A stretch of DNA of 64,000 bases from Phytoactinopolyspora limicola (GTDB taxonomy: Bacteria; Actinomycetota; Actinomycetes; Jiangellales; Jiangellaceae), in assembly GCF_011320225.1 (NCBI RefSeq), contig NZ_JAAOEN010000008.1:1-64000 (forward strand), in the 5' to 3' direction. The notes under the pieces were generated by a model. It was not told where the DNA came from and made no database searches. It was given only the letters and a program-made list of their open reading frames with translations. Made by a program: the position numbers and the translations under genes. Of the stretch, positions 12,076 to 45,884 are shown in pieces. Numbering within the stretch: the stretch's first letter is position 1; each line of letters begins with the position of its first letter.

Positions 12076-13184
12076 CGCTGTACGAACGGATCTTCTCGTC
12101 GGCGCTGAGCCGAGTGGACGCCGAGCGGATCCACCACGCCGCGATGACGGGGATCCGCACCGCCACCACGGTACCGGGGGTTCGGCGACTGGTCTGGCGG
12201 CGCACCACCCCACGTCACCCAGCACTCGCCGTCGAGGCGCTCGGGCTGCGGTTCCCGGGCCGTCTCGGACTGGCCGCCGGTTTCGACAAGAACGCCGTGG
12301 GTATCGACGCGCTGGGTGCTTTGGGGTTCGCATTCGTCGAGGTGGGCACCGTCACCGGGCAGGCACAGCCGGGCAACCCGAGGCCGCGGCTGTTCCGGCT
12401 GGCCCGCGACCGCGCCATCGTCAACCGGATGGGATTCAACAACGACGGAGCGGCGGCCGTGGCGGCGCGGCTGGCCCGGCGCCGCCGTCGCCGGCGGTCG
12501 TTGCCGATCGTCGTCGGAGTGAACATCGGTAAGACCAAGGTGGTGCCGGACGCGGATGCGATCGCCGACTACGAGGCCAGCACCCGGCTGCTCGCTCCTT
12601 ACGCCGATTACCTGGTGGTCAACGTCAGCTCACCGAACACTCCCGGACTGCGCGACCTGCAGGCGGTGGACCGGCTGCGCCCACTGCTGAGCGCGGTGCG
12701 CGTGCAGGCCGACGCGGCCACGGCCCGTCGGGTGCCGTTGCTGGTGAAGATCGCCCCCGATCTCGGTGACGACGACGTGCTGGCGGTGGCCGACCTGGTA
12801 TTGGAGCTGGGCCTGGACGGTGTGGTGGCCACGAACACCACGATCTCGCGGGACGGTCTGTCGTCCGACCCAGCCGAGGTTGCGGCGGTGGGCGCGGGCG
12901 GACTGTCCGGTGCACCCGTCGCCAAACGGGCCCTGGAGGTGTTGTTGCTGCTGCGTAGCCGCTTCGACGAGGCGCGTGGGCGCGGCCGCCCGGAGGGTGA
13001 ACCGGTGTTGATCTCGGTGGGCGGGATCGAGACGGCGAGAGACGCCTACGAGCGGCTACAGGCCGGAGCGACCCTGGTGCAGGCGTACACCGGGCTCATC
13101 TACGGTGGCCCGGCCTGGCCGGCGCGGTTGCAGCACGAACTCGCCCATCTGGTGGCCCACCATGAACCCACGCAACCCCGGTGA
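12072..13184 (+). CDS. pyrD: Quinone-dependent dihydroorotate dehydrogenase (class 2)
   Basis: This FMN enzyme oxidises dihydroorotate to orotate at the membrane and passes electrons to the quinone pool. The 370-residue length and the N-terminal extension before the barrel ([19 protein letters not shown]) are class 2 features. The active-site stretch [15 protein letters not shown] (about residue 185) carries the class 2 Ser. [18 protein letters not shown] and the phosphate site YTGLIYGGP are near the C terminus. It overlaps carB by 4 bp. Its last five codons and stop lie inside the left arm of a 146-bp inverted repeat, so the repeat has shaped the protein's C-terminal tail. Confidence 0.97.
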
Positions 13185-13313
13185 TCGTTAGCGGATTTCG
13201 GCCCCCACCCCCGGTGATCGAAGTCAGGATCCGGTCGCGATAGCGACCGGATGTTGCTAACGATCACCGGGGGTGGGGGCCGAAATCCGCTAACGATCAC
13301 CGGGGTTGCGTGG
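13168..13313. repeat. 146-bp nested inverted repeat between pyrD and pyrF
   Basis: Arms of 53 bp at 13168-13220 and 13261-13313 are perfect reverse complements, separated by 40 bp. Within it, 13213-13268 is a 56-bp module with the same ends (GGTGATCG/CGATCACC) and core (GGTCGCGATAGCGACC) as the palindrome at 98-153. The segment GGTGATCGTTAGCGGATTTC and its mirror form an outer shell. The left arm overlaps the last five codons and stop of pyrD; the right arm ends 7 bp before the pyrF ribosome-site region. It would form a very stable RNA hairpin that could attenuate pyrF or stabilise the upstream mRNA. Confidence 0.9.
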
Positions 13314-22646: not shown

Positions 22647-22901
22647 CTACACACCTTACTCACTTGGCGCGAAATGTCCCCGTGATGTCGCTCACGGTCC
22701 CTCGGAGGGGTGTGCGGTCTCCCCGGTGGCGCCTGCTGTCCTCTCCGGCCGATTCAGTCCCAGAGCTGGCGCGTTGTGTCCCGCTGCCACCGGCGCGCGG
22801 CCACAGACCATGGATGACGTGAGGCCACGGATCACACCTGACTATGGGCCGGCCACCGAGGCCTCACCGATACCGATCCCTCTCAACGAAAGGTGCGAGC
22901 C

Positions 22902-23444
22902 GTGTCTCGTTTGCCCTTGATCCAGCAGGAGAACGCCACCGGCAAGGCCGCCGAATTGTTGGCTGGTGTGCAGAAAGCGCTCGGCGTCACGCCGAACATG
23001 ACCAAGGCCATGGCCAACAGCCCGGCCGTGCTCAAGGCCTATCTCGAGTTCTCCGGCGCGCTGAGTGGCGGCAAACTGCCGGCGCCGGTCCGCGAGCGTA
23101 TCGCCATCCTCGTCGCCCAGGAGAACGGCTGCGACTACTGCCTGTCGGCGCACAGCTACATCGGGACCAACCTGGCCGGTCTCGACCAGGCCGAAGTTGA
23201 CCTGGCCCGCAAGGGAGGCGCTTCCGACGCCACCGCCCGGGCAGCGCTCACACTGGCCGCGGAGGTGGTGCGATCCCGCGGCGGGATCGACGACGCCGAC
23301 CTGAAGACCGCCCGCGAATCCGGCCTGTCCGACGGCGACATTGCCGAAGTCATCGCTCACGTAGCGCTGAATGTGTTCACCAACTATTTCAACAAGGCGG
23401 CCGATGTGGAAATCGACTGGCCGGTGGTCCGTCACAACCACTAA
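22902..23444 (+). CDS. Carboxymuconolactone decarboxylase / AhpD-like peroxidase-related protein, copy 1
   Basis: A 180-residue alpha-helical AhpD/CMD-fold protein. The redox motif CDYCLSAHSY (CxxC with a following His) is the signature of AhpD-like alkylhydroperoxidases, which use the cysteine pair for peroxide or disulfide reduction. The C-terminal NVFTNYFNKAADVEIDWP is typical of the PA2846-like subgroup. GTG 22902 is chosen by parity with copy 2 and a GAAAGG site upstream. It is followed 41 bp later by a close paralogue and faces an AraC regulator. The substrate is unknown. Confidence 0.9.
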   Translation: MSRLPLIQQENATGKAAELLAGVQKALGVTPNMTKAMANSPAVLKAYLEFSGALSGGKLPAPVRERIAILVAQENGCDYCLSAHSYIGTNLAGLDQAEVDLARKGGASDATARAALTLAAEVVRSRGGIDDADLKTARESGLSDGDIAEVIAHVALNVFTNYFNKAADVEIDWPVVRHNH

Positions 23445-23485
23445 ACGAACTCCGGTGCGGACCCTCGACTAAAGGAGTAGTGATC

Positions 23486-24028
23486 GTGTCCCGACTTCCG
23501 TTGATCCAGCCGGAGGACGCCACCGGCCCGGCGGCCGAGCTGTTGGCTGGTGTCCAGAGAGTTCTGGGCGTCACGCCGAACATGGCCAAGGCGATGGCCA
23601 ACAGTGCGGCCGTGCTTGATGCCTACCTCGAGTTCAATGCCGCCCTGGCCGGGGGTGTGCTGCCGCTCGACGTCCGGGAACGGATCGCACTGCTGGTGGC
23701 GCAGGAGAACGAGTGTGACTACTGCCTGTCGGCACATAGCTACGCGGCCAGTCGGGACGCCGGCCTCGACCCGGCCGAGCTACGCCGGGTCCGCACCGGG
23801 AGTTCGGCGGATCCGTGGGTGGAGGCGATCCTGGTGTTCGCCGCGGCGGTGGTGCGCTGCCGCGGCGACATCACCGAACAGCAGCTGCGGCAGGCCCGCT
23901 CGTCGGGGCTGACGGAGCAGGAGATCGCCGAGGTGGTCGGGCACGTGGCGTTGAACGTGTTCACCAACTATTTCAACAAGGCGGCCGATGTGGACATCGA
24001 CTGGCCGGTGATCCGGCACAACCACTGA
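23486..24028 (+). CDS. Carboxymuconolactone decarboxylase / AhpD-like peroxidase-related protein, copy 2
   Basis: This 180-residue paralogue of the preceding gene keeps the ECDYCLSAHSY redox motif and an almost identical C terminus (NYFNKAADVDIDWPVIRHNH). The middle third, about residues 95-140, has diverged strongly, suggesting a changed substrate or partner surface. GTG 23486 follows AAAGGAG by 8 nt. The gene is in tandem with copy 1, so both are probably one transcript controlled by the divergent AraC protein. The pair arose by local duplication. Confidence 0.9.
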   Translation: MSRLPLIQPEDATGPAAELLAGVQRVLGVTPNMAKAMANSAAVLDAYLEFNAALAGGVLPLDVRERIALLVAQENECDYCLSAHSYAASRDAGLDPAELRRVRTGSSADPWVEAILVFAAAVVRCRGDITEQQLRQARSSGLTEQEIAEVVGHVALNVFTNYFNKAADVDIDWPVIRHNH

Positions 24029-24168
24029 ACGATAAATGCTGAAGGTGTTCCGCGGAGAGCAGGTAGAATCGTGGAGTTTGCGGGTGCGCCGATACTGTCG
24101 ACGGTGATAGCCGTGCACTGGATCGGCCGCCCTGCCCATGCTGATGTATTCGGAGTGACGTTCCCACC

Positions 24169-29230: not shown

Positions 29231-30061
29231 TCAGGTCTGGTGCGTGGAGGTGAACTCGGCGAAGCCGACTGGTGGCCGGCCCAGCACGTCGGCCACGTCG
29301 GCGGTGCACGGTGCGGCATGGCCGGCGGCGATGGCCGCGAACAGCCCGCACAGCGTGTCGACGTACTCGTGGTCCCAGCCGAGCGCGAGTGTCCGGGCCC
29401 GGAACTCGGGTTCGGCCACCGGCTGGTAATCGAGGATCGGCAACCCCGCCTTCGCGGCCAGCCGTGCCAGCTCGGTGAACGACAGGCTCTCCGGCCCGGT
29501 GAGGGTGTATTCACGCCCGTGGTGGTCGGCCACGAGTGCGGCGGTGATGACGGCGGCGATGTCGCGGGCATCGATGAAGCTCACCGTCGCCGCGCCGGTC
29601 GGCAGCGACAACCGGCCGCCGTGGGCATCGGCCAGATCACGCAGCGGCCCCTCCGTGAGGTTCTGATAGAACCAGTTGGGCCGGACGACGGTCCAGCGCA
29701 TCGAGCTGTTCTGGAGACGCAGTTCGACGGCTCGCTGGTCGACGTCAGCGGGTGCGTACTGCATGCCGAGGGCCGTCATCAGGACGACGCGGCTCACACC
29801 GCGCTGCTCGGCGAGGTCGAGGAAACCGATGACCTGCTGGCCTAGGCCGGACACCGACCGGTGCCCGTCGTCGCCGCCGGGCAGGACGAGAAACACCTGG
29901 TCGACATCGTCCAGGGCGGCGTCCCAGCCGGCCGGATCGGCCCAGTCGAGGGGGACGTCCGTTCGCCTGGTGGCTGGGCGCACCGCGACACCCCGCTGGG
30001 TCAGTCCGTCGAGCACATGGCGGCCGACCTTGCCGCTGGCGCCGGTGACGAGTGTGGTCAT
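29231..30061 (-). CDS. NAD(P)H-binding NmrA/SDR-type oxidoreductase
   Basis: A 276-residue atypical short-chain dehydrogenase. It opens with the Rossmann motif VTGASGKVGRHVLDGLTQRG and has FIDARDIAAVITAALVADHH and a C-terminal substrate region, as in NmrA/QOR2-type NAD(P)H:quinone oxidoreductases. It lacks a clear YxxxK catalytic pair, which fits NmrA-like redox sensors or quinone reductases. Its ATG overlaps the tetR stop by 4 bp on the same strand. It is therefore the second gene of a TetR-controlled operon and probably the enzyme whose substrate or quinone is sensed. It converges on the lipoprotein gene. Confidence 0.9.
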   Translation of the reverse strand: MTTLVTGASGKVGRHVLDGLTQRGVAVRPATRRTDVPLDWADPAGWDAALDDVDQVFLVLPGGDDGHRSVSGLGQQVIGFLDLAEQRGVSRVVLMTALGMQYAPADVDQRAVELRLQNSSMRWTVVRPNWFYQNLTEGPLRDLADAHGGRLSLPTGAATVSFIDARDIAAVITAALVADHHGREYTLTGPESLSFTELARLAAKAGLPILDYQPVAEPEFRARTLALGWDHEYVDTLCGLFAAIAAGHAAPCTADVADVLGRPPVGFAEFTSTHQT

Positions 30062-30660
30062 GACCGGACCTCCAGGGTCGTGGCGAGTTGATCGAGCAGG
30101 ACGTCGCGGAACGGGTCGGTGTCCGGCCGGGGTTGGCCAAGCACTCGCGGGAAGAGCAGCCCGTCCAACGCCGCGACGAGGACGTCGACGACGGCGGCGG
30201 GATCATGGTGTGGGGTGAACATGCCCGTGTCCCGGCCGTGGGTGATCGCATCCACGAACGGCTGGCGATACCGGGCCTGCAAGGCCACGCTGTGCTGCCG
30301 TAGTTCTTCGTCGTGTGCCGCGGTGGTCCAGAACTCCATCAGCATCCGCCACACGGGGACCGGGGTAGCGATCCCGCGTTCGACGAGTGTCACCAGACGC
30401 TGCCATGGATCAGCGACCTCCTGGCTCATCCGTTCCATGGTGGCCACTTCGTGGTCGGTGGAACGCTGGATCGCCTCGATGAGCATGTCGTCCCGGGAAC
30501 CGAAGTAACCCTGGAGCGTGCTCACCGCGACGCCGCTGGCCTCCGACACGTCGGTGAACCGGGTCTGTTGGTAGCCGCGTTGGGCGAGCACAGTGGTCAC
30601 CACATCGAGCACGGCCGCGCGCCGCTCACCGCCAGCACGTCGTCGTCGAACATCTGTCAT
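30058..30660 (-). CDS. TetR-family transcriptional regulator
   Basis: The 200-residue repressor has the N-terminal TetR HTH (VTTVLAQRGYQQTRFTDVSE then ASGVAVSTLQGYFGSRDDML, about residues 21-61) and a C-terminal ligand domain of the TetR_C_6/BetI-like type. Its ATG at 30660 lies 6 bp from an array of inverted and direct repeats (30667-30770) that is the obvious operator. It overlaps the downstream reductase gene by 4 bp. It is likely self-repressing, with the ligand being a substrate of the reductase. Confidence 0.92.
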   Translation of the reverse strand: MTDVRRRRAGGERRAAVLDVVTTVLAQRGYQQTRFTDVSEASGVAVSTLQGYFGSRDDMLIEAIQRSTDHEVATMERMSQEVADPWQRLVTLVERGIATPVPVWRMLMEFWTTAAHDEELRQHSVALQARYRQPFVDAITHGRDTGMFTPHHDPAAVVDVLVAALDGLLFPRVLGQPRPDTDPFRDVLLDQLATTLEVRS

Positions 30661-30666
30661 ACCGGC

Positions 30667-30770
30667 ACCGTATCACTGGACCGTATGACGATACGGTCCA
30701 GTGATACGGTCCGTCGGTACGGTCCAGTGATACGGTCCGTCGGTACGGCCAAATGATACGGTGCCCGCTG
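30667..30770. promoter_or_regulatory. Operator array upstream of tetR: 20-bp inverted repeat plus 26-bp direct repeats
   Basis: A perfect 20-bp inverted repeat, ACCGTATCACTGGACCGTAT and its mirror (30667-30686, 30691-30710), has a 4-bp spacer. The right half is also the start of a 26-bp direct repeat at 30693-30718 and 30719-30744, with a degenerate third copy at 30745-30770. The shared module is ACGGTCCAGTGATACGGT. It sits directly before tetR, so it is best read as a multi-site TetR operator. Confidence 0.8.
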
Positions 30771-30776
30771 GTGAAC

Positions 30777-33700
30777 TCAGTCCGCTTGATGACCTTTCGG
30801 ACGGCGAGCCCGGGCCCCGCGGTTAGATGGGTCGAACGCCTTCTCCGTGACGTGGCTGATCGCGTTCTCGATCCCCCCGACCCGGTCGGCGAGCAGGCCG
30901 ATGGCACCGACGGCGCGGCTCATCGGATCGTCCTCGTCGCCGCCGAGCGCCTGCGCCCGGAGGAATCCCGCCTTGACCTCGGCCCACCGTTCGGACTGCT
31001 CGGGTGTGAGCCGCCCCCGCAGTTCGGCCAGCTTCAGCAGGTTGGCCTCCGCGCCGGAGGTGAGGGTCTGCGCCTCACCAACATAGTGGTCGTCGATCAT
31101 CGATTCGAGTTCGTCCTCGTTCATGACCGGCACCACCCGGGCCGCCATCGCGTTCATGTTCCGGTAGGAGCCCTGTAGCTGGAACGGTGGCTCGGTCCGG
31201 GATGCGTCGGCCTGCGCGGCCGAGGCGATGTAGGCCTGGTTGTTGGTCAGCACAACCTCCTGCACCCGTTGCATCTTCCGCAGCACCGCCAAGATTTGAT
31301 CCAGCTCCACCGGTGAATACGGGTGGGTCAACTGGTCCGGCTGGGCGGTCTCGTCACCACGGGCGAGCCGGACGAGAACGTCGACGTCGGCCTGTTCCCG
31401 GCCGGCCAGCGGCGCCAGCACCGGATTGGCGGTCAGGGAGTTCTCGACGTAGCTCAAGGCGAACAGGTCGTCGCGGCCGGACAAAACGTCACCGAGGTTC
31501 CACACGTCGGCCCGGTTGGCCAGCATGTCGGGCACCCGGAACCGCTTGCCCTCCTCCGTATAGGGGTTACCGGCCATACATACGGCGAAACGTTTGCCCC
31601 GGAGGTCGTAGGTGCGGGTCCGGCCGTTCCAGACACCTTCCATCCGCCGCTGCGCGTCACACATCGAGATGAACTTCTGCAGCAGCTCCGGATTGGTGTG
31701 CTGAATATCGTCGAGGTACAGCAACACGTTGTTGCCCATCTCGAGCGCAAGGTTGATCTTGTCGACCTCTTGCCGGGCAGTGGCGTTGGGTGCCTCGGCG
31801 GGATCCACCGACGTCACGGCATGTCCCAACGACGGGCCGTTGACCTTCACGAACACCAGCCCGAGCCGGCTGGCGACGTACTCCATCAGGGTCGTCTTGC
31901 CGTACCCGGGAGGGGAGATGAGCATCAGCAGGCCGCTCTGGTCGGTACGGCGCGACTCACCCGTGGTCCCCATCTGTTTGGCGAGGTTGTCGCCGATCAG
32001 CGGGAGATAGACCTCGTCCAGCAGCCGGTTGCGCACGAAACCGCTCATCACCTGCGGTTTGTACTCTTCCAAGCGCAGCACGTGCCGCTGCTGCTCGATC
32101 AGGGCGGTGCGCTGGCGCTGGAAGGAGCGGTAGGCCGGGATCCGCTCGGTACGGAACCGCCGAGCGCGAGCCAGCAGTTCGTCCAGCCGGAACGTCAACG
32201 TCCGGTTGTTGATCCGCGGATGGGTACCGAGCAAGCCACTGACGCTGGCCGACAGCGACGCCGCGGATTCGTGCCGGGTCGCCGCGCTGCCCGTCAGCTC
32301 CACCGCGACCGCCTCCGGCAGATCCACCGCGGAGACGTCGCCGTCGCTGGCGGCCAGGTAAGAACTCAGCCAGGCGTACACGAGCTGATGCCGGGCGGCG
32401 AGGTCCGAGCCGAGCGCGCGCAGGTCGTCCTCGAACGCCTGGCGTGAACCGGCGCCGGAACGTCGGCTCAGCGCCCGCCGGAACCCGTCGAGCAGCTTCT
32501 TCGCACCGGCGCTGGTCACGAAGCCCGACGACGGGTCGGCCAACTCCTCGAACAGATACTCACCGGCCAGGCCCCGGTCGGCGTCGTCAACCTCGCCCAG
32601 GCCGGCGGCGGTGAAGAACTCCGTCACCGCGCCGTCCAGCTCCGCGGACAGCGACTCCACGGCCTCGGACCGGTGGAACCGGAACGTCGCCCGGGCTTTG
32701 TGCAGCGAAACGGCCCGAGTGGTCCAGCTGGCCCTGGCCTCGTCGGTGGTGCCGAAGGTCCAGAACAGCTGGGCGGCGGCTCGGGCGGCCGGCGGATAAC
32801 GCAACAGGCCCGCGGCCGCGTGTAGGCGAAGCAACGCCTCCAGGATGGCGGCCGCGTCGTGGTCGTGTACGCCGCGTTCGTAGCCTTCGTCGTACCGGCT
32901 CTCCGCAGCCTGCCGGACCGTGGCCAGCAGGCCATCCTCCCCAACGGCAGCCTCGTGCAGCTTGTCCAGCGTCAGCCCGGAACCGTCGGACTCGTCCTCC
33001 GCCGCGGCCAGGATAGCCGCGGCCAGATGCTCGGCCCGGTACACCTCGGGTGACTCGGACACCAGCAGCTGATCCCAGAACGGCTTGGTCTTGTCGAACT
33101 CCGGGTCGTCCACCGGCGCGTGGAAGTCGGTCCCGGTGACGGAGAACGTCATCCCGCCGTCATGCGGCACCAGCGTCAGATCGATCGGCTGGGTGTTGAC
33201 CGCGAACCGGTGTGGGCCGAAGCGGATGGTCTCGCCGCCGTCGTCGTACAGATCGAGCCGGTCCCGCAGCGACCGGGCGGCCTCTTGCTGGGCCGCCTTG
33301 ATCCGGCCGGCCAGCTCCTCGGCGCGCACCTGATCGCCCAGCTCACGCAGCTCGGCGCCCACCTTACGCAGCCGCGCCACCATGGCGTCGGAGGCGAAGT
33401 ACGTGTTGACCTCGTCCACCGAACCCAGCGACGCCACCCGGCGGCGCACGTTGGTGAGGATCCGTTCGGCGGAGTCGGTCAGCCGGTCCGCCCGCCGGGT
33501 GCGCTCGTCTACCAGCGCCTGCTTACGCGACGAGAACGCCTCGTAGATGTCGTCGCGTTTGGTCTCCAGCTCGGCGAGGAAGTCGTCGAACTCGGTGAAC
33601 CGTGCCTCCAGGTTCTCCACCTGGAGCAGCAGCCGGCCCAGTTGGTCGTCACAGGCCTCCGGCGTGTTCGCCACCGCCAGTGCACCCGTGATGGCCTGGC

Positions 33701-35885
33701 CGAGCAGCGCGAACTCGGCGGCGAACTCCGCCCGGCCCTCGGTGGCCAGCAGGTCGCGCCGCCGGCCCTGAAGGGTGGCCCGGGCCCGGTTCAACGCGCC
33801 GAGCACCTCACCGATCCGTTCCAGGATCGCGGTGCGTACGGTGGCGTCGGCGATGTCCAACGAGCCGATCACCTCGGTCACCGTCTCCAACGCCTGTGAC
33901 TGCTCGTCGAGCTTCGTGGCCACTTCGGTCGCGTCGGCGACCGACGGGATCGACTCGGCCTGCTCGACAAGCTGGTCGACCTCGGAGTGGTAGCCGGCGA
34001 AGGCATCCTCACCCTGCAGGAACTCAACTGCGCGTTGAGCGGCCGAGCCCAGCTCCTCGTCGAGATCGGCATCGAGCCGGTCGATGCGGCCGGTGTCGAC
34101 GTAGCGCATGTCGCGCAACGTGACCAGGTGGCCCCTGGCCTGGCGTAGTTGGGCCAGTTGAGCCACCCACGCCGCCGCCGCTCGCGGCGCCTCACCCCGC
34201 ACCCGGCGCACCAGCGACGCGATGTCGGCGGCAGCCTCGTCGACGGCGGTGCGAGCTTGGGTGGTCAGCGCCTGGACGTTCTCGAACTCGTCGAGTACCT
34301 GCTCGGCGGTGGCCCGGATGTCGGCCACCGGGGTGCGTAGGTCGGATAGCTCCTGTTCACCCAACCAGTGGTAGCTGTCGAAAGCCCGCGTACAAGCCGA
34401 GATGATGGCCTCGAACACGGCCGCCGACGGTGCCATCTCGCCGATCATCCGGGTGATCGACAGGCAGTCCGAGATGCCGCGGACCAGTTCGGCGTTGCCG
34501 ACCCGCTCCAGCGGGCCGGTACCCACCGGCTGTGCCGCCGCGTACGTGTCCGATTGGAACGGGGTCTGCCACACCTGGAGGGGGTGGACCCGGGTCGGCT
34601 CCTCCGACGTCGCCCGCAAGATCACCAGGGTGCCGTCGTCGAACAACGAGTACCCGTGGCAAGGGATCGGGTTGGCGACCTCCTTGCGGATCACGTTGTA
34701 CGGCAGCAGCAGCGACCGGCCCTCTTCGCGGGCGTGGAAGACGTAGAGCACATCTTCGCCGTTGGGGGAGCGGATGGTCCGTTTGAACTCGAGGTCGGTG
34801 ACGTCGGTGTCGAACGTGCGGCTCTCACCCGTACTCAGGTAATAGCCGTCCGGGAAGATGATGCCGTGATCCTCGGGAAGCTGCTGGCAGGCCTGCCCGA
34901 TGCCGTCGAGCCGAGTGACACTTCTGGTCCTGGTGTTGAAGACGAGGTGCCGCCAGACGGTCTCGTTGTACGGCCTGATGCGCAGCAGCACCAACGGACC
35001 CAGCCGGGCGTAGAACACGTCGGCGTCGGCCAGACTCTGCAGCGGGTCCTCGACCTGCTCGGAGTAGATACCCTCGCCGCTCTCGGTGTTGTCCTCCACC
35101 TTGATGGTGAGATGGCCGCCGGTGGTCTCCACGAAGACGACGTCCTCGATGGAGATGTGTGGATAACGGCCGGTGACGTGGTTGTCGCGGGTGGTTTCGA
35201 TCCACTCGAAGTCGTGTGAACGGGGATAGACGTGGTCCCGCTCGCCGCGGTTGTCGAGGTAACGGATGTCGCCACCACGATCGACCTGCCAGCGCAGCAC
35301 CCGCAGGTCGTCGATGCTCGGACCGGTCTGGAAAACCGCGAGCAGTTTGTCGTCGGTGCGTCGCAGCTGGAGCAGCCGGGTCTCGCGGAAATACCGGTAC
35401 ATGTCGGCGAAGTCCCGGTGGAACTTCTGCCCGTCGAGCAGACCGGGCAGATCACCCGGCTCCGCGTCGTCGAACCGGAACGATCCCGGCTCTGCGTCGT
35501 CGTCGGCCGACCGGGCGAACCGATGCAGCGAGAAGACGTCGTCGACACTCGTCTCCGGCTTCATCCCGATGAAGACGTTGTAGCCGAACAGCATCAACCC
35601 GCCGTCGCCCTCGGCTCCCGAGCCGAGGGCGCCCAACGAGATGATGTCGCGCGGCACACAGTTGTTCTCCGTACGGATCCGTTCGGTACCGATCAACGCC
35701 AGCTGCGTGCCGCCGAACACCTCGATCCGGCGGGTGTTGAGTGCCTCGGCGCGCGACGCGAGCTGGGTGGCCTGGTCGCGCAGCCGAGTCCGGAGCACCT
35801 CGTAGGTGCCGACGTCCAGCCCGGCCTGTTCCTGATCCGCGGGGGCCGGGGTGCCCTCAGCGGTGTCGGTCGCGGTCTCGGACAC
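30777..35885 (-). CDS. Giant AAA+ ATPase of the DNA-repair-ATPase / DUF3686 type, flotillin-associated
   Basis: At 1702 residues this is the largest protein in the window. It resembles proteins annotated as DNA repair ATPase, with a DUF3686-like N-terminal region (about 1-470, beta-rich), a long helical and coiled-coil middle (about 490-900), further helical sequence and a C-terminal AAA+ module. Walker A is ISPPGYGKTTLMEYVASRLG (about 1321-1340), Walker B NVLLYLDDIQH (about 1388) and a sensor segment CMAGNPYTEE (about 1440). The pattern suggests a MoxR/dynein-like helix-2-insert clade. Its start is 6 bp after the flotillin stop, implying tight coupling with the membrane scaffold. The role in DNA repair is only a family label. 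Confidence 0.85.
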   Translation of the reverse strand: MSETATDTAEGTPAPADQEQAGLDVGTYEVLRTRLRDQATQLASRAEALNTRRIEVFGGTQLALIGTERIRTENNCVPRDIISLGALGSGAEGDGGLMLFGYNVFIGMKPETSVDDVFSLHRFARSADDDAEPGSFRFDDAEPGDLPGLLDGQKFHRDFADMYRYFRETRLLQLRRTDDKLLAVFQTGPSIDDLRVLRWQVDRGGDIRYLDNRGERDHVYPRSHDFEWIETTRDNHVTGRYPHISIEDVVFVETTGGHLTIKVEDNTESGEGIYSEQVEDPLQSLADADVFYARLGPLVLLRIRPYNETVWRHLVFNTRTRSVTRLDGIGQACQQLPEDHGIIFPDGYYLSTGESRTFDTDVTDLEFKRTIRSPNGEDVLYVFHAREEGRSLLLPYNVIRKEVANPIPCHGYSLFDDGTLVILRATSEEPTRVHPLQVWQTPFQSDTYAAAQPVGTGPLERVGNAELVRGISDCLSITRMIGEMAPSAAVFEAIISACTRAFDSYHWLGEQELSDLRTPVADIRATAEQVLDEFENVQALTTQARTAVDEAAADIASLVRRVRGEAPRAAAAWVAQLAQLRQARGHLVTLRDMRYVDTGRIDRLDADLDEELGSAAQRAVEFLQGEDAFAGYHSEVDQLVEQAESIPSVADATEVATKLDEQSQALETVTEVIGSLDIADATVRTAILERIGEVLGALNRARATLQGRRRDLLATEGRAEFAAEFALLGQAITGALAVANTPEACDDQLGRLLLQVENLEARFTEFDDFLAELETKRDDIYEAFSSRKQALVDERTRRADRLTDSAERILTNVRRRVASLGSVDEVNTYFASDAMVARLRKVGAELRELGDQVRAEELAGRIKAAQQEAARSLRDRLDLYDDGGETIRFGPHRFAVNTQPIDLTLVPHDGGMTFSVTGTDFHAPVDDPEFDKTKPFWDQLLVSESPEVYRAEHLAAAILAAAEDESDGSGLTLDKLHEAAVGEDGLLATVRQAAESRYDEGYERGVHDHDAAAILEALLRLHAAAGLLRYPPAARAAAQLFWTFGTTDEARASWTTRAVSLHKARATFRFHRSEAVESLSAELDGAVTEFFTAAGLGEVDDADRGLAGEYLFEELADPSSGFVTSAGAKKLLDGFRRALSRRSGAGSRQAFEDDLRALGSDLAARHQLVYAWLSSYLAASDGDVSAVDLPEAVAVELTGSAATRHESAASLSASVSGLLGTHPRINNRTLTFRLDELLARARRFRTERIPAYRSFQRQRTALIEQQRHVLRLEEYKPQVMSGFVRNRLLDEVYLPLIGDNLAKQMGTTGESRRTDQSGLLMLISPPGYGKTTLMEYVASRLGLVFVKVNGPSLGHAVTSVDPAEAPNATARQEVDKINLALEMGNNVLLYLDDIQHTNPELLQKFISMCDAQRRMEGVWNGRTRTYDLRGKRFAVCMAGNPYTEEGKRFRVPDMLANRADVWNLGDVLSGRDDLFALSYVENSLTANPVLAPLAGREQADVDVLVRLARGDETAQPDQLTHPYSPVELDQILAVLRKMQRVQEVVLTNNQAYIASAAQADASRTEPPFQLQGSYRNMNAMAARVVPVMNEDELESMIDDHYVGEAQTLTSGAEANLLKLAELRGRLTPEQSERWAEVKAGFLRAQALGGDEDDPMSRAVGAIGLLADRVGGIENAISHVTEKAFDPSNRGARARRPKGHQAD

Positions 35886-35891
35886 GTCGGA

Positions 35892-37901
35892 TTACTGCTT
35901 CGAACCGGTCAGGGCGGCCACCGGCTGATCGGCGAAGCCCAAGGTGCGGGCGGTCTCGAGCAGTTGCTCTAGCTTGGAGCGGTTCGGCCCGCCCTTGTTG
36001 ATCAACTGCATCAGCAACGCCGACACCGTGAGGTTCTTCAGATCCTCGGTGTCGACGCTACCCAGCAGCGACATGATGTCCTCGACGACGTTGGAGGACC
36101 CATTCAGCCAGGGCTCGGCGATGGTGCTCGCGACATCCGAGTGGTTAACGAAGCTGTCGACCCCCTTGCCCAGCGAGATCGAGTTGACGATGCGGTCGAA
36201 GAAGACGCTCTCGCCGCCGACGATGTTGATGTCGGCCTGCTCCAGCCCGGTGGCCAACACCTTGGCCTGGGCCTCGGCGACGTCGCGCTGGACGTTGAGC
36301 CCGGCCAGGCGGACGTCCTTCTCCATCTCCAGGCGCAGCCGGAACTCTTCGTGCCCGCGGCTGGCCTCGTCGAGTGCGGCCATCGCCGCGGCCTTCTCCT
36401 TCAGACCCTCAGACTCGCCCTTCAGCTTCTCGCGGATCGCTTCGGCTTCGACGAGCGCCTTCTCCCGGGCCGCGGACGCTTCGGCCCGGCCGACCTTCTC
36501 GATGACCTCGGCGTCGCGGTCGCGCACCTGGACCTCGGCGAGGCCGGCTGCGGCAGCTTCGGCCTGAGCCCCTTCGGCCAGCCGGATCTTGGCCTGGGCG
36601 TCGAGCTCCGCGGCCTGCTGACGGGCCTCGGCGAGCGTGAGCTCCTCTTGGGCCTTGTGCTTGGCAGCCTGCTCCGCAGCCTCTGCCGACTTGATGTCTT
36701 TGACCAGGTTCTTCTGGGCCTCGGCCTCGGCAGCGATCACCGTGGCCTGACGCTCCCGCTCGGCCTCCTCGACCGTACGGACCCGCTTGATGTTCTCTTC
36801 CTGCTCGGCGACCGTCTTGTCGACGGCGACCCGCTCGCGGACCACTTCGGCCACCGCGCGCTTCTCGGTCTCGACCTCTTTGGTCTTGGCGATCGTGGCG
36901 AGCTCGGTCTCCCGGTCACGGGCGACGACCTCGAGCATCCGGTCCTTCTCGATCTTCTCCGTCTCGACGGCGACGACACGTTGCCGGTTGAGCTCGGCGA
37001 CGGCGATCTCGCGGGCCTTGTTCTCGCTCTGGACGCCGACCTGCTCGTCGGTGCGGATGTTGGCGCTTTCGGCCTTGAGCCGCTCCTCGGCCTGGACCCG
37101 GGCGGTCTCGGCTTCCTCGCGGGCGCGGAGGGTGTCGACCTCGCGCTGCTGAGTGGCCTCGGCGTCGGCCTGCCGGCGCTCGAGCTCCAGGATGGTCTCG
37201 CGGGCTTCGACGTTCTGCCGGGTGATCTCCTTCTCCCGGCCCCGCTCGAAGTCGTTGGTGCGGACGTGTTCCTGCGCGGTGAGCTCGGTGATCTTGCGGA
37301 TACCCTGCGCATCCAGGATGTTCTGGGTGTCGAGCTGCGACATCGGTGTCTGCTCGAGGAAGTCGATGGCCGCGTCCTCGAGGCTGTAGCCGTTGAGGTC
37401 GGTGCCGATCACCCGGATGATCTGGTCGCGGAACTCGTCGCGTTGGGTGTAGAGATCGACGAAGTCCATGTGCTTGCCGACAGTCTTCAACGCCTCGGAG
37501 AACTTGGCGTTGAACAGTTCCTGCAGCGTCGTCTGATCACTGGCCCGTTCGGTACCGATCGCCTGAGCCACCCGGATGACGTCTTCCACGGTCTTGTTCA
37601 CCCGCACGAAGAACGTGATCTTGATGTCCGCCCGGATGTTGTCCTGACAGATGAGGCCCTCGTGGCCGGTGCGCTCGATGTCGATGGTCTTGACCGAGAT
37701 ATCCATGAACTCGGCCTTGTGGACGATGGGCAGGACAACCGCACCGGTGAAGGTGACGTCGACCCGCTTGACCTTGGAGATGATAAGTGCGCGACCCTGT
37801 TCCACTTTGCGGAACAGCCGCGTCACGACGAAGATCGCCGCGAGCGCGACGATCAGGATGACGGCTAACAACACACCAAGACTGGTGCTCACGGTATCCA
37901 T
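35892..37901 (-). CDS. Flotillin/SPFH-domain membrane scaffold (YqiK-like)
   Basis: The 669-residue protein has an N-terminal membrane anchor (LGVLLAVILIVALAAIFVVT) and an SPFH/band-7 domain at about residues 35-220 (IKITFFVRVNKTVEDVIRVA). A very long E/A/R-rich coiled coil follows at about 225-560, then a C-terminal tail with NIVGGESVFFDRIVNSISLG. This is the YqiK/FloT layout: proteins that organise membrane microdomains in cooperation with NfeD/YqiJ partners. It lies between an OB-fold membrane protein (119 bp upstream) and the giant ATPase (6 bp downstream), all on the minus strand. Confidence 0.93.
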   Translation of the reverse strand: MDTVSTSLGVLLAVILIVALAAIFVVTRLFRKVEQGRALIISKVKRVDVTFTGAVVLPIVHKAEFMDISVKTIDIERTGHEGLICQDNIRADIKITFFVRVNKTVEDVIRVAQAIGTERASDQTTLQELFNAKFSEALKTVGKHMDFVDLYTQRDEFRDQIIRVIGTDLNGYSLEDAAIDFLEQTPMSQLDTQNILDAQGIRKITELTAQEHVRTNDFERGREKEITRQNVEARETILELERRQADAEATQQREVDTLRAREEAETARVQAEERLKAESANIRTDEQVGVQSENKAREIAVAELNRQRVVAVETEKIEKDRMLEVVARDRETELATIAKTKEVETEKRAVAEVVRERVAVDKTVAEQEENIKRVRTVEEAERERQATVIAAEAEAQKNLVKDIKSAEAAEQAAKHKAQEELTLAEARQQAAELDAQAKIRLAEGAQAEAAAAGLAEVQVRDRDAEVIEKVGRAEASAAREKALVEAEAIREKLKGESEGLKEKAAAMAALDEASRGHEEFRLRLEMEKDVRLAGLNVQRDVAEAQAKVLATGLEQADINIVGGESVFFDRIVNSISLGKGVDSFVNHSDVASTIAEPWLNGSSNVVEDIMSLLGSVDTEDLKNLTVSALLMQLINKGGPNRSKLEQLLETARTLGFADQPVAALTGSKQ

Positions 37902-38020
37902 CTATACATCCTTTGTTCCTGCGGCATCGGCCGTCCAGCAGGTGTGGCCGGCGGGCTGATCGATCTTCAGGTGATATTCGCTTGTGGTCGAACGTTTCTG
38001 TTCTGGGTGGGCCTGGCGGC

Positions 38021-38653
38021 TCAGAACGGCCTTCCGCCAGGGTCGAGTTCAGCGGCGAACGGCGAGACCCAGAAGAACTCGCCGTCCGTGTCGTAGTCGA
38101 AGATCAGAGCGGTGCTGCCGGCCGAGAACTCGTCCTGGCCAGTCTGGCGGACCTGAATGATGGCGGTGGAGCCATCGTCGGCGGTAACCTCCGCCTGGCC
38201 GGTGCCGGCGCCGAGGGGGGCGGTCCGGATGACGCAGATCTTGCCGACGAAGTCGCCCCGAGACGATTCTCTGACCCTGGGCAGGGTGCGTCGCACGAAC
38301 ATGATCACGAACGATGTGATGATCCATGCCAGGGTGATGGCCAGCGCCACGGCCACGATGCCGAGCCCGACCATGGCCGGTGTGGGGAGGTCCAACTCGC
38401 CGATCGCCACGGTGCCTACCATTCCGAAGAACCACGCGAACGCGATCAACAAAGACGCCGCGATAGTGACCGGCACGCCATCCAGCTTCGCGGCCGCCAA
38501 CAGATCGCCGGCGGCGCCGCCGTCATCCCCGTCGAACATGTCGACGCCGAGGCCACCCACCAGGACGACCAGCCAATAGACCACGACCACCACCAACATG
38601 AAGCTGAACACGACGGCGGGGAGGGACAGCGCGGTCTCGATGAAGTCAGTCAC
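38021..38653 (-). CDS. YqiJ/NfeD-like membrane protein with C-terminal OB-fold (DUF1449 type)
   Basis: The 210-residue protein has three hydrophobic segments (VVFSFMLVVVVVYWLVVLVG, TIAASLLIAFAWFFGMVG, VALAITLAWIITSFVIMFV). A soluble beta domain from about residue 133 (GDFVGKICVIRTAPLGAGTG) fits the OB-fold of NfeD/YqiJ proteins, and VRQTGQDEFSAGSTALIFDY is typical of that end. NfeD-like proteins are obligate partners of flotillins. It is the first gene of the flotillin-ATPase operon, starting at 38653 and preceded by a 166-bp gap. Confidence 0.88.
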   Translation of the reverse strand: MTDFIETALSLPAVVFSFMLVVVVVYWLVVLVGGLGVDMFDGDDGGAAGDLLAAAKLDGVPVTIAASLLIAFAWFFGMVGTVAIGELDLPTPAMVGLGIVAVALAITLAWIITSFVIMFVRRTLPRVRESSRGDFVGKICVIRTAPLGAGTGQAEVTADDGSTAIIQVRQTGQDEFSAGSTALIFDYDTDGEFFWVSPFAAELDPGGRPF

Positions 38654-39701: not shown

Positions 39702-40691
39702 ATGCTTGCCGACCGGTATGGGCGTATCGCGACAGATCTCCGAGTCTCATTAACTGACCGGTGCAACCTCCGATGCACCTACTGCATGCCCGAGGAGGGG
39801 CTGGCTTGGTTACCCAAGCCGGAGCTCCTTACCGACGACGAGGTCATCCGGCTGGTCCGGATCGGCGCCGAACGGCTCGGCATCCGCGAGGTCCGGTTCA
39901 CCGGAGGTGAACCGCTGCTGCGCCGCGGGCTGGTCGACATCGTGGCTGCGTGTGCACAACTCGATCCTCGCCCGGAACTATCGCTGACCACCAACGCCGT
40001 AGGACTGACCCGGGTGGCCGCCACCCTGGCCGAGGCCGGGCTGGATCGCGTCAACGGCTCGCTGGACACCCTCCGCGCCGACCGTTTCGAGCGCCTCACT
40101 CACCGGCGCCGGCTCGACGACGTCCTCGCTGGTCTGGCGGCGGCCGACGCCGCCGGGCTGTCGCCGGTGAAGGTCAACGCCGTACTCATGCGCGACGTCA
40201 ACGACGACGAAGCCCCCGACCTGCTCGCCTGGGCACTGGACAACGGCTACGAACTACGGTTCATCGAACAGATGCCGCTGGACGCCCAGCACGCCTGGAA
40301 CCGCGCCGACATGGTCACCGCGGGCGACATCCTGGCCGCACTTCAGGAACACTTCGAGTTGACCCCCGACACCCCCGAGGAGCGGGGGAGCGCCCCGGCG
40401 GAGCGGTGGCTGGTCAACGGCGGGCCGGCCCGCGTCGGCATCATCGCGTCGGTGACCCGGCCGTTCTGCGGCACCTGCGACCGCACCCGGCTCACCGCCG
40501 ACGGCCAGGTGCGCACCTGCCTGTTCGCCCGCGAAGAATCCGACCTCCGGGGAGCTATGCGGGCCGGCGCCAGCGACGAAGAGCTAGCCGAGCGCTGGCG
40601 GATCGCGATGGCCGGCAAAGCGGCCGGGCACGGTATCGACAACCCCGAGTTCCTCCAGCCCGACCGGCCAATGTCCGCCATCGGCGGCTAG
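39702..40691 (+). CDS. moaA: GTP 3',8-cyclase MoaA (molybdenum cofactor biosynthesis)
   Basis: A radical SAM enzyme that starts molybdopterin synthesis from GTP with MoaC. The N-terminal cluster motif is [10 protein letters not shown] (about residues 24-33) and the C-terminal second cluster uses CGTCDR and a following Cys (RTCLFAR). The protein ends MSAIGG, the Gly-Gly tail typical of MoaA that inserts into the active site. ATG 39702 has GGGAGA upstream and gives 329 residues. No other mo genes are nearby. The segment NGSLDTL replaces the more usual NVSLDTL. Confidence 0.96.
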
Positions 40692-41432
40692 CTCCCCCGT
40701 TGTGCACCTGATCTCCGTTTTGTCACCTGATCTTTTTCCCTGGGGCGATCAGGTGTGCCAACCGCGGACGACGGCGCGGTGTGCTGCACCTGATCGCCTC
40801 CACCATGCGGACGCGCGGCGATCAGATGCGTCACCGCGGCCTGTCGGTCAGTTGATGCATCTGATCGTCTCGCCCGGTGTCGACCGCGCGGGATGCGAAC
40901 AACGACGAACCACCCAACACCAACACCAACACCAACACCAACACCACGAGCACAACATCCCCGGCCGGACCCCGATGACCGACCCACTCGCTGGACCCCA
41001 CTCGCCGGACCCCACTCGCCGGACCCGCCACCGATCGCTGACCGGACACCTGCTGCCGATCAGATGCACAACTCGCCCTCAAAGCGCCGATCGTGCATCT
41101 GATCGCCGCGCGTCCACATCACGGGACGCGATCAGATGCACCACACCGCGCCGACACCCGCCGTTGGTACACCTGATCGCCCAGGCAAAAAGATCAGGTG
41201 ACAAAACGGAGATCAGGTGCACACGGCGGGGGCACGGCGTGGCGCGGGGCGGGCCGGATACACAACGTGGCCGCTCAGGCTGCTCCGGCGGCGGGCGATC
41301 CGGCCGATAAACGGCGACGCCGGGCAGCCACGGGGGAAGCCGCCCGACGCCGTCGCTACGCAGCGCACCGACGGGGGAATGCGGAACGTGCGCGTGGGGA
41401 GTATTACACGGGAAAGAGGCCTATCGGAAGGG
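40692..41432. other. 741-bp intergenic region dominated by repeats
   Basis: There is no credible gene between moaA and DUF3099. Positions 40702-41222 are an inverted-repeat element, listed separately. It includes a short tandem tract of the 6-mer AACACC at about 40916-40945 and a duplicated CCCACTCGC/CGGACCCC stretch at about 40983-41026. The remaining 41223-41432 is plain GC-rich sequence, and the DUF3099 gene ends at 41433. Confidence 0.7.
40702..41222. repeat. 521-bp element with ~60-bp inverted ends and 12 CAYCTGATC motifs (repeat family B)
   Basis: The left arm 40702-40762 and right arm 41163-41222 are inverted copies differing by two substitutions and one indel. The motif CAYCTGATC or its reverse complement occurs twelve times in the element: three in each arm and six in between, often as closely spaced inverted pairs. 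The outer unit GTTTTGTCACCTGATCTTT resembles the 19-bp unit repeated at 45804-45860. No transposase frame is present, so it could be a MITE-like element or a protein-binding array. Confidence 0.88.
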
Positions 41433-45774: not shown

Positions 45775-45803
45775 TCGAAAGTTGCCGGGCCACGCAGGCC
45801 CCT

Positions 45804-45884
45804 GCTTGGGCATCTGATCTCCGTTTGGGCACCTGATCTCCGCTTGGGCATCTGATCGTCGCCGTGAGACGTCAGATGCCCAGC
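45804..45884. repeat. Three 19-bp direct repeats plus inverted partner (repeat family B)
   Basis: Units GCTTGGGCATCTGATCTCC (45804-45822), GTTTGGGCACCTGATCTCC (45823-45841) and GCTTGGGCATCTGATCGTC (45842-45860) are followed by an imperfect reverse complement, GACGTCAGATGCCCAGC (45868-45884). This makes a hairpin between the convergent metF and oxidoreductase genes that could terminate both. The CAYCTGATC core links it to the 40.7-kb element. Confidence 0.85.

Follow-up and report, generated by a model that had tools for sequence, protein, structure and literature searches.

What is a protein of 1702 residues doing directly downstream of a flotillin-like gene, and does the name 'DNA repair ATPase', which its relatives carry in annotation, describe it? 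The question is raised by a locus of the actinobacterium Phytoactinopolyspora limicola (assembly GCF_011320225.1) that lies within positions 1 to 64,000 of contig NZ_JAAOEN010000008.1, and this whole stretch of 64,000 nucleotides is hereafter called the window. A first-pass annotation proposed that three genes there encode a membrane machine in which the ATPase remodels or extracts client proteins at flotillin sites, possibly in stress or phage defence. Operons that combine a band-7/flotillin gene, a YqiJ/YuaF gene and a beta-propeller-coiled-coil AAA+ ATPase have been described by Ravi et al. (2024; PMC11237479), and, since that article is in print, neither the linkage nor the operon is a new discovery; as far as its operon section describes them, the three genes and the ATPase architecture are the same as here and nothing essential differs. 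The long operon form contains PspA, as part of a CesT/Tir-PspA dyad, while abbreviated band-7/YqiJ operons lack the dyad and hold the ATPase 'in some cases' (Ravi et al., 2024). Small profiles detected no CesT/Tir-PspA dyad in the window, and its operon would therefore be of the abbreviated form. A literature search that left aside most subscription papers and bioRxiv preprints found no bench study of the DUF3686/PF12458 ATPase or of the operon.

The three-gene operon

The open reading frames of the window contain the three minus-strand genes where they had been placed, and the features of the locus are as follows:

38021..38653, minus strand: NfeD/YqiJ-like membrane protein (ORF of 210 aa; weak YqiJ profile match)
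35892..37901, minus strand: SPFH/flotillin-family protein, YqiK-like (ORF of 669 aa)
30777..35885, minus strand: giant AAA+ ATPase, DUF3686 + DUF7902 + AAA+ (ORF of 1702 aa, GTG start)
34368..35762, minus strand: PF12458 (DUF3686), ATPase residues 42-506 (Pfam E 1.5e-213)
34560..35705, minus strand: predicted WD40-like beta-propeller, residues 61-442 (model and structure comparison)
33756..34007, minus strand: PF25472 (DUF7902), residues 627-710 (Pfam E 4.2e-30; helical in the model)
31011..32045, minus strand: AAA+ domain, residues 1281-1625 (Pfam AAA and AAA_5 above cut-off; NorQ/CbbQ fold matches)
31890..31913, minus strand: Walker A PPGYGKTT, residues 1325-1332 (sequence motif)

The ATPase starts exactly 6 nt past the SPFH stop (intervening bases 35886-35891), and 119 nt separate the NfeD-like and SPFH genes. 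The strength of the PF12458 match shows that the ATPase is not a chance frame. An Rfam scan of 26000-46500 gave nothing at gathering score, a promoter and terminator scan gave nothing above chance, and the 64-kb window holds no tRNA.

Linkage and co-occurrence of the ATPase and SPFH genes

The constancy of the arrangement was surveyed at 130 loci in six sets, between which some species were possibly counted twice: 5 from the own genus, 9 from an actinobacterial sample (7 genomes), 11 from 12 plasmid records (one near-duplicate was left out), the closest 80 of 535 relatives (mostly Streptomyces and allies), 20 from the Myxococcus phylum (hand-picked across the score range of its 93 positive genomes), and 5 of the 7 other positives in the phylum of genome G333. 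A same-strand SPFH gene accompanies the ATPase at 126 of the 130 loci (5, 9, 11, 78, 18 and 5 by set), so that the possibility of an ATPase occurring mostly without flotillin neighbours is not borne out. The NfeD-like gene, recognised by a family profile, is found at 107 (5, 8, 10, 62, 18 and 4 by set); of the constant flotillin/NfeD linkage that had been anticipated, the flotillin part thus stands, whereas the NfeD part is looser. Some of the missing NfeD-like genes lie past contig ends, but no recognisable one is present at several Streptomyces loci whose upstream sequence extends to almost 10 kb; a search for divergent forms in 15 of the 23 profile-negative loci returned one upstream multi-span frame, not NfeD-like by eye.

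Of the four loci without SPFH, two (L043 and L101) are cut off by a contig end at the ATPase, and the other two (L157 and L158, from genomes G379 and G390) have the SPFH gene on a different contig. The SPFH-ATPase gap lies between -95 and 443 nt in 123 of the 126 loci, the median of all 126 being 69 nt, and the three outlying values come from over-long or broken frames at L065, L109 and probably L017, where the ATPase is split into two ORFs. Two apparent SPFH-ATPase fusions were rejected: the 2335-aa ORF of L065 joins an out-of-frame reading of the SPFH gene to the ATPase frame, and an over-long upstream frame accounts for L109. After these two loci had been dropped, ATPase distances correlated with SPFH distances at r 0.93 (124 loci) and with NfeD distances at 0.78 (105 loci), values obtained without an unlinked control gene and given no weight. 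Two actinobacterial genomes, G128 and G182, carry two copies of the operon each (L017/L019 and L020/L021).

Co-occurrence gives the same picture. Among 489 genomes, 99 hold both genes, 2 the ATPase only, 1 the SPFH gene only and 387 neither, which supports the flotillin linkage of the first-pass annotation. The Myxococcus phylum (193 genomes) contributes 93 with the ATPase, 92 with the SPFH protein (at E 1e-80) and 91 with both, while among 296 actinobacterial genomes the same 8 hold the two. The corresponding Fisher p of about 1e-100 overstates the case, because the species do not count as independent samples and the members that went into the SPFH profile were themselves linked to the ATPase; the real result is the absence of proven single-gene genomes. 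The three singles all belong to the Myxococcus phylum and are not proven exceptions, since each breaks at a contig end: G527 (ATPase only) has a truncated SPFH gene directly upstream, the contig of G503 (ATPase only) ends at the ATPase start, and that of G369 (SPFH only) ends right after NfeD and SPFH. In seven of the 91 genomes the two matches lie on separate contigs. The ATPase contigs of G352, G424, G466 and G375 stop at the ATPase or a short way upstream of it, G466 still showing part of an SPFH gene at that point; those of G379, G390 and G392 extend more than 5 kb upstream without SPFH, and the two genes are thus unlinked in at least three genomes. Loci L157, L158 and L194, all of the Myxococcus phylum, have the ATPase without a local SPFH gene and an SPFH gene on another contig.

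The ATPase itself is patchy, being found in all 5 genomes of the own genus, in 0 of 17 other family members, in 8 of the 296 actinobacterial genomes and, among 72,556 plasmid records, in 12, which include several of chromosome size. Where Ravi et al. (2024), in the operon section, mention the ATPase in some cases of their abbreviated form, it is near-obligate here for a narrower SPFH subfamily found by profile, and this pairing is an addition of the present analysis.

Architecture of the giant ATPase

The N-terminal part of the ATPase is predicted to be a beta-propeller. An AlphaFold2 model of a 581-residue piece (residues 20-600), made from 27 sequences, has a mean pLDDT of 87.8, and its residues 61-442 resemble WD40-type propellers (best match a WDR domain, Z 9.8, rmsd 5.4, 198 aligned); Foldseek likewise ranks propellers top, with low TM-scores near 0.2. 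A second model, of residues 503-1660 from 24 sequences, is mostly helical as far as the AAA+ domain, with long helices and a pTM of 0.40, and the nucleotide-binding core (model residues 781-970) has block-mean pLDDT values of 47-84. Searches against solved structures gave a best E of 0.43 for the propeller part and, for the AAA+ part, p97, NVL, Rix7 and RuvB, chiefly around the P-loop, while a viral fold search gave weak, mostly propeller-like matches.

The C-terminal AAA+ domain contains Walker A, Walker B and sensor-1 motifs. Walker A is present at 129 of the 130 loci, in the exact form PPGYGKTT at 128; sensor-1 GNPYT occurs at 125 and the strict Walker B pattern at 116, the second Walker B acid being Asp. 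A further motif, DMLxNR, is found at 129 loci, and its arginine, which the low-confidence model puts just before strand 958-961, may act as an arginine finger. The MoxR clade has been defined by a helix-2 insert and by an arginine N-terminal to core strand 5 (PMC7159879). In the low-confidence model of the ATPase the arginine is N-terminal to core strand 5, a hairpin lies ahead of the sensor-1 strand, and the helix-2 region has a short helix and a loop ahead of helix 2, with the inserted strands absent.

Structure comparison of the same model puts NorQ and CbbQ nearest (Z 8.9 and 8.7, rmsd 4.9 and 4.7, 229 and 232 aligned), their matches scoring Z 7.9-8.9 against 6.1-7.7 for other AAA+ proteins. 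It is important to note that a Z near 8 is middling, that the top entry is a designed helical protein (Z 9.0), that RavA matches over 79 helical residues only, and that the Foldseek match to NorQ reaches E 0.012 only. No entry is named Vps4, p97 or FtsH, which excludes none of them. By profile, AAA_5 (dynein-related), AAA, AAA_22 and RuvB_N each match 18 of the 18 aligned domains at E 0.01. In hhalign comparisons with single E. coli proteins, RuvB comes first (95.4%, over 76 columns around the Walker motifs), followed by FtsH (90.5%), ClpX (89.7%) and RavA, a MoxR protein and the last of the four (13.1%, E 0.0022). The AAA+ domain thus appears RuvB/MoxR-like by predicted fold, a placement that sequence leaves unsettled, and the MoxR reading is not secure because this comparison puts RuvB first and RavA last. 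The fold reading, at this strength, is also an addition of the present analysis.

In classical threading unfoldases the segment that links strand 2 to helix 2 bears the aromatic pore loop 1. No aromatic residue is conserved in this segment among the 18 AAA+ domains aligned, so that the ATPase is doubtful as a standard threading unfoldase and the extraction of clients by threading is doubtful as well. Pfam detected a vWA domain in none of the three proteins, and neither Pfam nor NCBIfam gave a peptidase family.

The SPFH and NfeD-like proteins

The SPFH protein is related to E. coli YqiK, with 28% identity over 443 columns (125 identical; BLASTP E 4e-35) and an hhalign probability of 99.9%. It has one N-terminal hydrophobic segment, the SPFH part and a long coiled-coil-like region. 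Its match to the NCBIfam FloT family is partial (E 1.8e-7; 30.6 bits, far under the cut-off of 700), Pfam Band_7 matches 2 of 8 family members, the window protein not among them, and the solved-structure search returned only QmcA, within the coil region. The residues after the hydrophobic segment are rich in Arg and Lys, which suggests that the SPFH part is cytoplasmic.

For the 210-aa protein, the label 'OB-fold membrane protein' of the first-pass annotation appears weak. The hhalign match to YqiJ is itself weak (probability 67.5%, E 5e-5), Pfam NfeD matches 1 of 9 aligned members, again not the window protein, and the solved-structure search gave nothing up to E 5. A crude hydropathy count finds five hydrophobic segments, compared with three transmembrane segments in the YqiJ/YuaF partner of Ravi et al. 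(2024).

Genomic neighbourhood

The SURF1-MoaA side of the operon is kept in 4 of 4 congeners and the ABC-F/ABC-exporter side in 2 of 4 (one other stretch ends there). SURF1 adjoins the operon in the window, in the 4 congeners and at two other loci. As general partners the two genes were rejected, MoaA occurring at the 5 own-genus loci only and SURF1 at 7 of 130. The TetR gene at 30058-30660 was rejected as operon regulator, having no homologue above 40% identity at the other 129 loci; one locus, L178, does have an annotated gene of the TetR/AcrR family in its vicinity. The interval from the ATPase stop to the start of tetR contains, at 30667-30757, three repeats of 26 nt with a perfect inverted repeat of 20 nt, and these are candidate operators of this TetR gene.

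As raw counts, a PucR-type regulator (GGDEF_2 + HTH_30) was detected in the flanks of 38 of the 130 loci (E 1e-20), lying upstream at 35 of them and being encoded on the opposite strand at 30, and a TrkA-N protein in the flanks of 15. The two proteins are possibly a regulator and an ion-homeostasis partner, respectively, in Streptomyces and allies. The recurrence of the PucR-type gene beside the actinobacterial operon is a further addition, the operon section of Ravi et al. (2024; PMC11237479) making no mention of it; one example is found at 2502-3563 of L031.

Other elements of the window deserve a record. Nested inverted repeats at 40691-41233, whose arms measure 54-68 nt and are 73-91% complementary, have related copies at 45799-45857 and resemble a small mobile or palindromic element without coding sequence. 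A large hairpin at 13168-13313 has 71-nt arms (92% complementary) around a loop of 4 nt, and a perfect 28-nt palindrome at 98-153 is followed by four 30-nt tandem repeats at 261-380. At 22901-24032 two DNA blocks are repeated with 584-nt spacing and 78% identity. An ORF named AhpD-like by eye, 23480-24028, falls within the second copy, and the arrangement is thus probably the outcome of a tandem gene duplication.

A proposed remodelling chaperone and its alternatives

The reading that we prefer, at a probability of roughly 0.5, is that the operon encodes a protease-free, SPFH-docked, ATP-driven remodelling chaperone at the membrane, and membrane proteins that are damaged or misassembled are the probable clients of the trio. 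The basis in the data is gene linkage, co-occurrence, domain make-up and conserved ATPase motifs, to which we add, by inference, docking, ring formation, clients, membrane side and a role in stress. The SPFH protein, with the NfeD-like protein where present, would form an oligomeric scaffold on the cytoplasmic face of the membrane and would collect membrane proteins that are unfolded or wrongly assembled. The propeller and the helical part may attach the giant ATPase to this scaffold, and the AAA+ ring at its C terminus, RuvB/MoxR-like in type, would then use ATP to act on the clients or on the scaffold, which it would remodel, release or reassemble. The setting would be envelope stress, in some bacteria jointly with PspA. 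The original idea that the ATPase remodels clients at SPFH sites is in this sense plausible. The low confidence of the AAA+ model, the insecure MoxR reading, the scarcity of PspA in the flanks, the absence of NfeD from 23 of the 130 loci and the three unlinked genomes weigh against the chaperone reading.

Several known systems offer precedents or partial parallels for the chaperone reading. In Bacillus subtilis PspA reaches the membrane only with the help of an SPFH protein (PMC8581546), and on two plasmids PspA and YjfI/Tir-like genes belong to the gene run of the operon, which likewise speaks for this reading. HflK/C works with the AAA+ protease FtsH (PMC13220708), likewise an SPFH scaffold and an AAA+ machine at the membrane; FtsH has a protease domain, whereas the operon has no protease family by Pfam and NCBIfam and adds a propeller to an ATPase of presumed cytoplasmic placement. 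FloA-NfeD of Staphylococcus aureus also pairs SPFH with NfeD and is reported to stabilise unfolded proteins without ATP (PMC11222466), whereas the operon adds an ATPase gene. E. coli YqiJ-YqiK has a related SPFH protein and gene order, with no ATPase gene after yqiK.

Among the alternatives, an ESCRT-like system is unlikely, although it survives best. The ATPase would be a Vps4 analogue that disassembles ESCRT-III-like PspA polymers at SPFH sites, the reading nearest to the published proposal of Ravi et al. (2024; PMC11237479). YjfI/Tir-like genes and PspA share the gene run with the operon on pQBR103 (L030) and on a Hymenobacter plasmid (L033), and PspA is present in 9 of 9 genomes tested, including the own genome, whose single copy is on a different contig from the operon. 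However, PspA with a YjfI or Tir-like gene flanks just these 2 of the 130 loci, by profiles built from one or two proteins; PspA often occurs where the ATPase is lacking, as in a control set of 14 genomes, of which 9 have PspA and 0 the ATPase; and NorQ and CbbQ lead the AAA+ matches, the missing Vps4 entry excluding nothing.

This same lead of NorQ and CbbQ speaks for a dedicated assembly factor, a reading that we consider improbable and in which the MoxR-like ATPase would serve the maturation of a single membrane complex. NorQ is thought to mature nitric oxide reductase, and SURF1, which acts in oxidase assembly, adjoins the operon throughout the genus. Nonetheless, SURF1 is confined to 7 of the 130 loci, and the 25 largest neighbour clusters, many without an assigned identity, include no other obvious client gene. 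The ATPase further differs from the MoxR-family proteins NorQ and CbbQ, its nearest fold matches in the low-confidence model, in its long N-terminal extension, in the Asp as second Walker B acid and in the lack of a vWA domain in the three proteins.

An anti-phage system, one of the roles raised for the operon at the outset, would fit the patchy presence in actinobacteria (8 of 296) and the plasmid copies, but is very improbable: the best PADLOC match has E 0.0047, over short P-loop or coiled-coil stretches, phage records gave no match, 37 pattern-matching viral-contig stretches held 0 relatives, and the SURF1-side chromosomal neighbours are the same in all four congeners. SMC/RecN-type DNA repair ATPases have ABC-type ATPase heads. 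A DNA repair role, disfavoured most strongly of all, has the Pfam description, the record annotations, the RuvB hit and the RuvB_N match (below the Pfam cut-off in the window protein) on its side, yet the ATPase has an AAA+ domain in place of ABC-type heads and a constant membrane partner, and Pfam finds no SMC, RecF, nuclease or DNA-binding family. The label goes back to the family name and, as first suspected, is weak.

Implications for bacterial flotillins

The chaperone reading can be extended, more tentatively and at less than even odds, to the view that a distinct branch of flotillins would serve as the membrane receptor of its own ATP motor and not as a passive raft scaffold, the motor being an AAA+ ring of RuvB/MoxR type that lacks a protease, is held in place by a beta-propeller and, in some actinobacteria, is tuned by a PucR-type regulator. 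The name 'DNA repair ATPase' is misleading, and there is a case for removing it from genome annotation. A flotillin subfamily with a near-obligate ATPase offers a concrete handle on the debated role of bacterial flotillins; if the extended view is true, an ATP-driven flotillin machine would complement the ATP-independent FloA-NfeD clamp and the degradative HflK/C-FtsH system.
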